DNA from: an uncultured Alphaproteobacteria bacterium
GTDB taxonomy: Bacteria; Pseudomonadota; Alphaproteobacteria; Micavibrionales; Micavibrionaceae
DNA length: 64,000 nucleotides
Direction of reading: 5' to 3'
Assembly: GCA_900696495.1 (NCBI GenBank)
Contig: CAADGI010000008.1
Location: forward strand, 1-64,000
Part shown: positions 39,183 through 50,950 of the stretch, piece by piece
How the letters are laid out: each line of letters opens with the position of its first letter
Position numbering within the stretch: position 1 is the first letter of the stretch
The notes under the pieces: model-generated
What the model saw: only the letters and a program-made list of their open reading frames with translations
Database searches by the model: none
What the model was told of the DNA's origin: nothing
Position numbers and translations under genes: made by a program

Positions 39183-39208
39183 AATTATATCTTTTAAAAA
39201 AAAGGATT

Positions 39209-39294
39209 TAACCACAGAGGACACAGAGAACACAGAGGAAAGCACAGAGTTTTATCATTTTTCTCTGTGAAACTCTGTGTCCTCTGTGGTGAAT
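39209..39294. repeat. Family C palindrome between two divergent genes
   Basis: ACCACAGAG, GACACAGAG, AACACAGAG and GCACAGAG (39211-39249) face CTCTGTG, ACTCTGTG and TCCTCTGTGGT (about 39262-39290). It lies 27 nt upstream of both the dehydrogenase start and the recO start, filling the whole spacer. Confidence 0.85.
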
Positions 39295-39321
39295 CTTTTT
39301 TTATTTGCATATTTTAACTTT

Positions 39322-42499: not shown

Positions 42500-43537
42500 C
42501 TACGGGAACTCGACCTTGCCCGGGGTTTTTTTGAAGGTGCCGATGGGGATTTCGGGCATGTCGGGAACATCGGAACCTGCGTCGCCGGTTTCTTCGGCTT
42601 CTTCGGCGGCTTTTTTATCGAAGTCGGGATTTGTCAGTTCTTCTTTCAACAAAATAATAGAGATTCGGCGGTTGCTGGCGTCGGTGGGTTTATCCGGCGC
42701 GAGGTGATCGGTATCGGCCTTGCCGACGACGTTGTTGATGCGGGTGGCGGGCAGGCCAGCCCCCAGCATGACGCGGCGCGCGGCATTGGCGCGGTCGGAA
42801 GAGAGCTCCCAGTTCGTGTATTTAGCCCCGGCGGCGTAAGGCACGCTGTCGGTGTGGCCGCGGATGGAGAGTTCGTTCGGCAAGGTCTGGATGACTTTTT
42901 CGACCTGCACGATGAGTTGCTTGGTGTAGTCGAACATTTCGGCGGAGCCGGACGCGAACATGGGTTTGCCTTCGGAATCCACAATTTGAATACGCAGGCC
43001 TTCGGGCGTCATGTCGATGAGGAGGTTTTTGGCGAGGTCTTTCAATTGGGGGTCGGCGGCGATCGCCTCCTTGATTTTCTTTTCGGCTTCCTTGAAGCGC
43101 GCTTCCTCTTGCTTGCGGAGTTCCTGCTTGGCTTTTTCAATGGCGCGTTTCGAGACATTGGGCGCGAGCGTGTTGTCGTCGCGTTTTTCGCCGGAGCGCT
43201 TGTTGACGCTGGAGGAGGGCGGCGCGGCGGTGACGGGTTGGACTGTCGTTGCCATGGCGCCCTGGGGCGCCATGGAGAGACCGCCGAGCACGCCGCCCGC
43301 GCCGCTGTCGGACTGGGAGACTTTCGGGTGGGTGGGGTCGAAATAATTCGAGATCGCGTTTTTCTGTTCTTCCGTCGTGACGTTCAGCAGCCAGAGCAGC
43401 AGAAAGAAGGCCATCATGGCGGTGACGAAGTCGGCGTAGGCAACCTTCCATGCGCCGCCGTGGTGGCCGCCGCCTTTTTTGATCCGCTTGATGATGATCG
43501 GCTGTTTGGTTTTATCGTCTTTCGCTGCCTCGGCCAC
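42500..43537 (-). CDS. motB: Flagellar motor protein MotB
   Basis: The 345-residue stator subunit has a basic cytoplasmic tail (KRIKKGGGHHGGAWKVAYAD), one membrane helix with the proton-binding Asp in YADFVTAMMAFFLLLWLL, a long charged linker, and an OmpA-like peptidoglycan-binding domain (LSIRGHTDSVPYAAGAKYTN, RANAARRVMLGAG). The start is GTG with AAGGTG 6 nt upstream. MotA is encoded upstream on the same strand, but 482 nt away, separated by a GxxExxY cassette whose left arm ends about 15 nt before motB. Confidence 0.95.
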   Translation of the reverse strand: MAEAAKDDKTKQPIIIKRIKKGGGHHGGAWKVAYADFVTAMMAFFLLLWLLNVTTEEQKNAISNYFDPTHPKVSQSDSGAGGVLGGLSMAPQGAMATTVQPVTAAPPSSSVNKRSGEKRDDNTLAPNVSKRAIEKAKQELRKQEEARFKEAEKKIKEAIAADPQLKDLAKNLLIDMTPEGLRIQIVDSEGKPMFASGSAEMFDYTKQLIVQVEKVIQTLPNELSIRGHTDSVPYAAGAKYTNWELSSDRANAARRVMLGAGLPATRINNVVGKADTDHLAPDKPTDASNRRISIILLKEELTNPDFDKKAAEEAEETGDAGSDVPDMPEIPIGTFKKTPGKVEFP

Positions 43538-43552
43538 GGATTCACCTTTTTT

Positions 43553-44018
43553 AAACCACTGAGCGCACTGAGATCACTGAGTTTTCTTAAATTACGAACC
43601 TTCTGATGCCGTCCTTCAGAAGTTTGGCATTAAAATTCATAAGGAGGCCCGTTCTTATCTTTGAAAGCTTGAGATAAGTTAAAATTTGGGCTTCATGAAT
43701 AGGTAATATTTCTTCAATCGCCTTTAGTTCAACAATCAGGCGATTTTCTATGACCATATCTAAACGATAGGCATTTGCAACTATATGCCCATCGAACTCA
43801 ATTGGCATCATAGCCTGGTTGGTGTGAGCGATTCCGTTTTTATTTAGTACGAGAGAGAAGCATTCCTGATAGGCGCTTTCGAGTAGGCCCGGTCCTAGGT
43901 TTCTGTGAACGTATATAGCACTTTCAATGACTTTTTTTGTTAAATCATCCTGTGCCACTTCTATATTTATTACTTTCTCTAACATCTCTGTGTTCTCAGT
44001 GTTCCCAGTGGTTCAAAT
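43553..44018. mobile_element. GxxExxY cassette bounded by inverted family C arms
   Basis: The left arm is ACCACTGAG, CGCACTGAG and ATCACTGAG (about 43555-43581). The right arm is ATCTCTGTG, TTCTCAGTG and TTCCCAGTGGTT (about 43984-44015). They are inverted copies of the same 9-nt-unit array, and a complete GxxExxY gene fits between them. The whole block sits between motA and motB. No transposase is present; how it moves is unknown. Confidence 0.65.
43587..43985 (-). CDS. GxxExxY protein (PD-(D/E)XK-like)
   Basis: The 132-residue product has the name-giving motif in GPGLLESAYQECF and a nuclease-like core: Asp in YRLDMVIENRLIV followed by ELK in VELKAIEEI, the D...ExK pattern of PD-(D/E)XK proteins (PDDEXK_3/PF13366). 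Whether these proteins cut nucleic acid is not established. The ATG directly follows the inner family C unit (ACACAGAG ATG), so the repeat itself may serve as the ribosome site. The stop abuts the opposite arm. Confidence 0.9.
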   Translation of the reverse strand: MLEKVINIEVAQDDLTKKVIESAIYVHRNLGPGLLESAYQECFSLVLNKNGIAHTNQAMMPIEFDGHIVANAYRLDMVIENRLIVELKAIEEILPIHEAQILTYLKLSKIRTGLLMNFNAKLLKDGIRRFVI

Positions 44019-44019
44019 T

Positions 44020-44910
44020 TTAACTTGGCGGCGGGAGTTCGTTGAGCTTGGTTTCAAGCTCGAGGAAGCCGGGCTGGACGTCGTGCGTCAGGAATTTCCG
44101 GCCGAATTCAACCGCGACCTGCGGAGCGCTGGCGTTCAGGAAGGCGATCATGGAGACCTTGATGGCCTTGTAATACTGGACCTCGGTCTGGGCGCGGCCG
44201 GTCATGGCGCCGGCGATGGGCGAAACGAACGCGTAGGACAGCCAGACGCCGAGGAATGTTCCCACCAGCGCGCCGCCGATCATCTGGCCGAGGACTTCGG
44301 GCGGTTCGGAAATCGAGGCCATGGTTTTGATAACGCCGAGAACGGCGGCGACGATGCCCAGGGCGGGGATACCGTCGGCCATATGCTGGACGGCATGGCC
44401 GGGGTGGCCTTCATGCTCCTGGATGGTTTCGATTTCCATGTCCATGAGGTCGCCGATTTCGTGCGGGTTTTCCTTGCCGAGCGAGATAAGGCGGAGGTAA
44501 TCGCACAGGAACGTGACGGCGTAATGATTTTCGGCGAAGGAGGGGAAGCGCTTGAACAGCTCGCTCTCTTCCGGTTTTTCGATATGCGCCTCGAGCGCCA
44601 GCCAACCCTTGGTGCGGGCGAGCTTGAAGATGCTGAACAAGGCCGAGAACAGCTCGATATAATCTTCCTTGGTGTAGGAGGCGGGCTTGGCCAGCGCGCC
44701 GAAATATTTGATCGTGTGCTTGACGGTGTCCATCGAGTTGCCGATGAGGAAGGCGCAGATGGCGCAGCCCATGATGATGGTGACCTCGCCGGGCATCGCT
44801 TCGAGGATGCCCATCATGAGGTGGGTGAAGTGGCCCATGTTGAAGTGCATGGCGATCAGCAGGCCGCCGTAGGTGCACACAAAAACCATTAAAATGCCGA
44901 CAAACTTCAT
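44020..44910 (-). CDS. motA: Flagellar motor protein MotA
   Basis: The 296-residue product is the proton-channel subunit of the flagellar stator. Four membrane helices are visible (MKFVGILMVFVCTYGGLLIA; ITIMGCAICAFLIGNSM; ALGIVAAVLGVIKTMA; GGALVGTFLGVWLSYAFVSP) and a large cytoplasmic loop between the second and third. It assembles with MotB in the inner membrane. motB follows on the same strand, with a 482-nt insertion between them. AGGA lies about 11 nt before the ATG. Confidence 0.96.
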   Translation of the reverse strand: MKFVGILMVFVCTYGGLLIAMHFNMGHFTHLMMGILEAMPGEVTIIMGCAICAFLIGNSMDTVKHTIKYFGALAKPASYTKEDYIELFSALFSIFKLARTKGWLALEAHIEKPEESELFKRFPSFAENHYAVTFLCDYLRLISLGKENPHEIGDLMDMEIETIQEHEGHPGHAVQHMADGIPALGIVAAVLGVIKTMASISEPPEVLGQMIGGALVGTFLGVWLSYAFVSPIAGAMTGRAQTEVQYYKAIKVSMIAFLNASAPQVAVEFGRKFLTHDVQPGFLELETKLNELPPPS

Positions 44911-50914: not shown

Positions 50915-50950
50915 TAACCACAGAGAACACAGAGTTCACAGAGGAAACAC
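50915..50950. repeat. Family C half-palindrome
   Basis: TTAACCACAGAG, AACACAGAG and TTCACAGAGG form a single arm just upstream of gcdH. The opposite arm is missing, and family A sequence follows directly. Confidence 0.75.

Follow-up and report, generated by a model that had tools for sequence, protein, structure and literature searches.

The flagellar motor operon motA-motB in the 64,000-nucleotide stretch of DNA analysed here (the window) is interrupted by a small insert, in which a complete gene of the GxxExxY family is enclosed by two inverted arrays of short units. The insert is missing from the corresponding spacer of two genomes of the same genus, and most simply it was gained in the host after the split from these congeners. 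Across bacteria and archaea the word and the spacing of the arms are coupled to the subfamily of the protein. In our view the insert is probably an intervening element of the selfish kind, and its PD-(D/E)XK protein would recognise and cut the arms of the element and thereby drive its spread, with gene-less copies as MITE-like derivatives.

The motA-motB insert and its protein

Open reading frames and family matches define the following features at the locus.

44020..44910, minus strand: motA, the upstream neighbour (open reading frame; Pfam MotA_N and MotA_ExbB)
43986..44017, no strand assigned: arm on the 5' side of the GxxExxY gene, units CTCTGTG, CTCAGTG and CCCAGTG, then GTTCAAA (reverse complement of AACCACTGGGAACACTGAGAACACAGAG)
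43587..43985, minus strand: GxxExxY gene, a PD-(D/E)XK nuclease of 132 aa (TIGR04256, PF13366, AlphaFold pLDDT 91)
43550..43581, no strand assigned: arm on the 3' side of the GxxExxY gene, TTTAAACCACTGAGCGCACTGAGATCACTGAG, three nonamer units
42500..43537, minus strand: motB, the downstream neighbour (open reading frame; Pfam MotB_plug and OmpA)

The preliminary description of this DNA had placed motA and motB on the same strand with 482 nt between them, and the open reading frames together with the family matches agree with this (43538-44019). It had also read a complete GxxExxY gene in the gap, which is confirmed by the TIGR04256 match (E 1e-40, 138.8 bits against a cut-off of 35), and inverted nonamer arrays at both gene ends, which an inverted-repeat search recovers as two arms of 32 nt each with 81% complementarity. 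The ATG of the gene (43985) immediately follows a repeat unit, as described. The motB ribosome site AAAGGTGAAT is likewise intact beside the arm, but the edge of the arm lies 12 nt from the motB GTG and not about 15 nt as given earlier. The outer ends of the insert are AT-rich and stand in for the stop-to-start spacer of motA and motB. When up to three mismatches are allowed, the sequence CACTGAGNNCACTGAG has nine matches in the window against 2.5 expected, a number reached by 0 of 100 shuffles. With up to two mismatches there are 60 matches throughout the host genome (G000, 2.04 Mb in 25 contigs), compared with 2 for the reversed control.

An empty site was sought in the motA-motB spacer of close relatives. 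In both same-genus genomes, G001 and G002, the spacer is 14 nt long (...CGAGCTAGGGAGAGCGCTGATG...), whereas by the same count it is 485 nt in the host, and the motB genes of these congeners are 92-94% identical to that of the host. The short spacer favours an inserted element, which most simply entered after host and congeners had split. The other relatives that were read have spacers of 0 to 107 nt. The cleanest junction belongs to a gene-less copy, CCGCCC-TAT[AAAAATTGAACCAC...GTGGTTAAAAAA]TAT-GACAGC, to be compared with CCGCCCTATGACAGC. The TAT that flanks it on both sides is a possible candidate for a 3-nt target duplication, seen in this one clean case among about ten junctions, the others being blurred by divergence. 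Among the plasmid records there was no pair of strains of which one has the element and the other lacks it.

The protein carries the marks of the GxxExxY family, namely the motif GPGLLESAY and, in the alignment, Asp-63, Glu-73 and Lys-75; 132 of the 141 loci have the pattern D-x(7-12)-E-x-K. Its suspected PD-(D/E)XK nature is borne out by a match to PF13366 PDDEXK_3 (E 1e-39, 135.8 bits against a cut-off of 22). The AlphaFold model (pLDDT 91) has a compact PD-(D/E)XK core. The best solved structural match is SSO0001, a Cas4-type nuclease (Z 9.2); restriction-type nucleases come next, and archaeal Hjc is found at Z 6.8, although a Z near 7 may reflect merely a common arrangement. A sequence search found no solved structure related by sequence to the GxxExxY protein. 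Because the Foldseek E-values were all about 1e-3 or worse, the fold assignment is based on the matches to PD-(D/E)XK profiles together with the VIA-align Z of 9.2. Cas4/RecB-type nucleases and Hjc resemble the GxxExxY protein in its predicted fold and in the ExK active site, and Hjc also in its small size, but they have no detectable sequence relation to it.

Arms, protein types and operon sites

To survey the arms, the left and right 200-nt flanks of GxxExxY genes were compared as inverted repeats, with a 99.5% shuffle threshold. Inverted arrays above the threshold flank 63 of the 78 named loci, from more than 15 phyla and including archaea, compared with 2/69 at positions 600 nt further out and 0/30 at motB. 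The preliminary description had proposed looking for such arrays at GxxExxY genes elsewhere, and their presence favours an inserted element. Loci of the four-helix-bundle family TIGR02436 also have inverted arms (19/30, against 1/30 further out), with units that are mostly heptamers such as GTAGGCA, GTAGTGA and GTGAGGA. In genus g62, which has four-helix-bundle genes, GTAGNNAGTAGNNAGTAG has 2 to 48 matches in each genome, against 0 for its reversed control, and several of the matches are short gene-less inverted pairs. Four plasmid copies, three from Nostoc and one from Azospirillum, have comparable short-unit arms. In biased collections, GxxExxY was found in 8 of 72,556 plasmids and in 0 of 50,697 phage records, and this scarcity argues against an ordinary transposon.

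At 96 of the 141 loci, units could be delimited in both arms. Within an element the variable unit letters agree at 78%, compared with 45% for permuted partners, and linker length agrees at 92% versus 35%; the linker letters are nearly free (50% versus 39%). Equal spacing, kept words and free linker letters suit recognition of each unit by a protein. A stem with internal loops, in DNA or RNA, is a possible alternative role of the arms.

The units follow the type of the protein. For LLE/LYE-type proteins they end in G (AG for LLE) in 82 of 82 cases and are mostly 8-9 nt long, and for FLEK/GHG-type proteins they end in T (AT for FLEK) in 12 of 12 and are 10 nt long, as in the FLEK-type decamer CACGAATNNA. 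On the protein tree the terminal G or T requires 1 change, compared with a shuffled mean of 12, so the LLE/FLEK split is a single event on the tree. Within the G class the unit period takes 16 changes (30 ± 2.5 when shuffled) and the unit word 33 (42.6 ± 1.8). Host phylum takes 30 on the same tree versus 36 shuffled, and the period thus drops further below its shuffles. Where two protein types occur in one genome (L124 and L139 in G019, L128 and L140 in G026), the arms match the protein, which speaks against a gene landing in any available hairpin. The coupling could come from joint inheritance alone, and it fits a protein that would act on its own arms.

The preliminary description had called the insert a non-autonomous mobile cassette with a passenger gene. 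Its insertion is upheld by the empty sites. Passenger is a poor term for a gene that keeps its active-site residues and is co-inherited with its arm type, and it is rather the gene-less copies that look like the non-autonomous form.

By NCBIfam annotation, gene-bearing elements lie within core operons between motA and motB, atpA and atpG, and nuoC and nuoD; further sites are before atpD, after carA, before carB, and beside sdhA and gmd. An annotated Sphingomonas sequence has a gene-bearing element with a left arm only between fabD and fabG. As read from the sequence, accB and accC of the host are split by a four-helix-bundle gene with short AGTTAAT-type arms (L295, G000:C22:14198-17521). The nuoC-nuoD spacer of one genome (L126) contains a GxxExxY element, and in other genomes (L274 and relatives) the same spacer contains four-helix-bundle elements. 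At atpA-atpG the GxxExxY insertion is orthologous in the host (L003) and G001 (L119), with arm units that have diverged yet are mutually inverted.

Where the two neighbours are codirectional, the gene shares their direction in 83 cases and opposes it in 11, and in 80 named, more independent loci the ratio is 34:11 (p 8e-4). Neighbour strands were called by open reading frame length, which is noisy at high GC (nuoD of L274 was placed on the wrong strand), so the bias is diluted. An element with symmetrical ends can owe this bias only to its gene, and expression of the gene by read-through therefore seems to matter.

Gene-less palindromes in the host genome

The host has four GxxExxY genes, and inverted arms lie directly outside all four. 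Their arm words differ, being CACTGAG, AACGCAACG, CACGAAG and a CACAG-based word. In addition there are at least about 22 gene-less palindromes of 56-154 nt with similar arms and a loop that is mostly AT-rich, a lower bound since they were listed by pattern for CACNNAG-type arms only. The window contains a gene-less palindrome and a solo arm.

39213..39288, no strand assigned: gene-less palindrome, CACAGAG units with an AT-rich loop, not in either congener
50919..50943, plus strand: solo arm without a partner, three CACAGAG units; the same place in a congener carries a CACGAAG array

When the sites were located by their flanking pieces, about 20 of the 22 palindromes were absent from both congeners, which marks them as recent gains. 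At C21:30238 a palindrome is present in G001 too, where the flanks match well and the unit letters differ, and at several sites a congener has a palindrome of another family. Six of the host palindromes share a layout of two units, 8-10 A/T-rich nt, GAG and a third unit. Among the gene loci examined, this layout occurs elsewhere only at LYEK-type genes of relatives (L120 and L123), so that gene-less copies have ends matching those of a gene-bearing element, as expected of MITEs. The LYEK-type gene at L123 (G028:C48) has in-frame stops, which may represent decay or a frame artefact, and its arms are intact. With respect to their neighbours, 12 gene-less palindromes are in codirectional, 6 in convergent and 5 in divergent surroundings, with no codirectional preference. 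Over 58 relatives the number of arrays tracks the number of genes (Spearman 0.58, p 1.5e-6); G029 and G052 have several arrays and no detected GxxExxY gene.

A second palindrome family (TGTCATCCCGG... / ...CCGGGATGACA, as well as a GTCATTGCGAGG type; L052 at G000:C21:37450-37603, and L167, L144 and L172 in the congeners) fills the same intergenic sites in the congeners and in one case lies within the loop of a CACTGAG palindrome. Two further palindromes are nested, L045 (G000:C14:94990-95160) and L049 (G000:C20:61930-62110), with ACGCGAAG..ACGAAG arms outside and a CACAGAG palindrome inside, as if loops served as targets. The palindrome at 39205-39295 of the window has sub-threshold Rfam matches to plant and animal microRNAs, which reflect only the hairpin and are a trap for automatic annotation.

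Proposed mechanism and related systems

In the mechanism that we favour, the inverted arrays of about three short units per side would be the ends of the element, and the PD-(D/E)XK nuclease would recognise the unit word of its own arms. It would cut them, either in the form of duplex ends or once they have extruded into a cruciform or hairpin, and so start copying or moving the element. Gene-less palindromes with the same arms would be MITE-like derivatives mobilised in trans. The gene would survive where an operon transcribes it, and the AT-rich ends would spare the ribosome site of the neighbour. Both the binding and cutting of the arms and the mobility driven thereby are what we infer from these comparisons.

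The arms could instead act in RNA: an intervening sequence whose transcript stem is cut by RNase III, with the protein binding the stem or the processed RNA and with rare, recombinational spread in DNA. In the predicted transcript fold the arms indeed form a closing stem that encloses the entire gene (z -5.0), as the terminal repeats of 23S rRNA intervening sequences do, and the genes are co-oriented with the operons. The four-helix-bundle protein of the 23S intervening sequences has the same layout, also in the nuoC-nuoD spacer, and the Coxiella element is cut by RNase III (PMC4990558). However, the letters of the inter-unit linkers are not kept complementary, gene-less palindromes also lie between convergent and divergent genes, the PD-(D/E)XK fold suggests a DNA substrate, and cuts in RNA leave new DNA copies unexplained; we judge this explanation unlikely. 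In a further reading, the palindromes form a repeat family of their own that another enzyme mobilises, and GxxExxY genes are trapped cargo. This reading would accommodate the excess of palindromes over genes in the host, about 5 to 1, and the genomes with arrays and no detected gene. It is nevertheless distinctly improbable, given that arm word and spacing track the protein tree, and follow the protein rather than the genome where two types coexist, and that a different protein family has the same layout with a different unit. The Y1 (RAYT) transposase, the only transposase type searched for, is also absent from the host.

Hardly credible is an immobile, functional operon gene, for instance a repair or defence nuclease, with stabiliser or terminator hairpins. 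Core operons are hit repeatedly and the active site is conserved, as such a gene would have it, but congeners have empty sites, turnover is high, neighbours are unrelated between genomes, the same palindromes occur without the gene, and there is no PADLOC match. On this last result a defence island was rejected too. A REP/RAYT system was rejected because G000 has no PF01797 (Y1_Tnp) match, and a phage gene on the phage records and a PHROG match that is not significant. The sole gene being a PD-(D/E)XK nuclease, the element is not an insertion sequence with a DDE, HUH or serine/tyrosine transposase, and it has no Rfam match above the gathering score. A 23S rRNA intervening sequence proper is excluded, as the motA-motB site is not an rRNA gene and the open reading frame does not encode a four-helix bundle.

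Among known systems, the 23S rRNA intervening sequences (S23p open reading frame, TIGR02436, PF05635) share with our preferred selfish element a length of about 430-480 nt, one small open reading frame, terminal inverted arms, a position within a conserved transcript, a patchy distribution and a proposed mobility (PMC4990558). In contrast, the element encodes an unrelated protein, a nuclease, lies in protein-operon spacers, has arms made of short-unit arrays, and has gene-less copies elsewhere in the genome. In Coxiella the intervening sequence is a selfish element of 428 nt that has an S23p open reading frame and a terminal stem of 28 bp; its origin is described as unclear, and a role in mobility was once proposed for its open reading frame (PMC4990558). 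MITEs and autonomous insertion sequences are similar in having gene-less inverted-repeat copies beside gene-bearing elements, matching ends and high turnover. They differ in that the element has no known transposase family, its ends consist of tandem unit arrays, which differ from copy to copy, and its target duplication is only a candidate. Avd is a partner of the reverse transcriptase in diversity-generating retroelements. It is homologous to the four-helix bundle (PMC10053308). The heptamer (STRR) hairpins between cyanobacterial hupS and hupL, of unknown function, also consist of tandem short units in an intergenic hairpin and also occur in operons (PMC2670836); their units are 7 nt long, and the heptamer arms observed here flank four-helix-bundle genes, not GxxExxY genes.

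The literature searched, with subscription journals mostly outside its coverage, yielded no description of the arms or flanks of GxxExxY genes. We tentatively suggest that bacteria and archaea may harbour a broad class of selfish, operon-intervening elements that has so far gone undescribed. In it, two or more small proteins that are unrelated to each other, among them the PD-(D/E)XK nuclease and S23p, the four-helix bundle, would each go with a repeat word of their own, give rise to gene-less hairpin derivatives and insert into the same core-operon spacers; the 23S intervening sequences and the cyanobacterial heptamer hairpins would then count as special cases. The widespread GxxExxY genes are annotated by motif only. 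If the favoured mechanism is right, they encode the enzyme of a tiny element that can enter core operons and leave them unbroken, and the CACNGAG-type hairpins that abound in these genomes are derived from it. The S23p parallel makes both the origin of the 23S intervening sequences (PMC4990558) and the nature of the cyanobacterial heptamer hairpins (PMC2670836) directly testable, and the coupling of arm word and protein offers natural nuclease-site pairs for biochemistry. On Nostoc plasmids (L339-L341), four-helix-bundle genes have heptamer arms that resemble the cyanobacterial STRR repeats.
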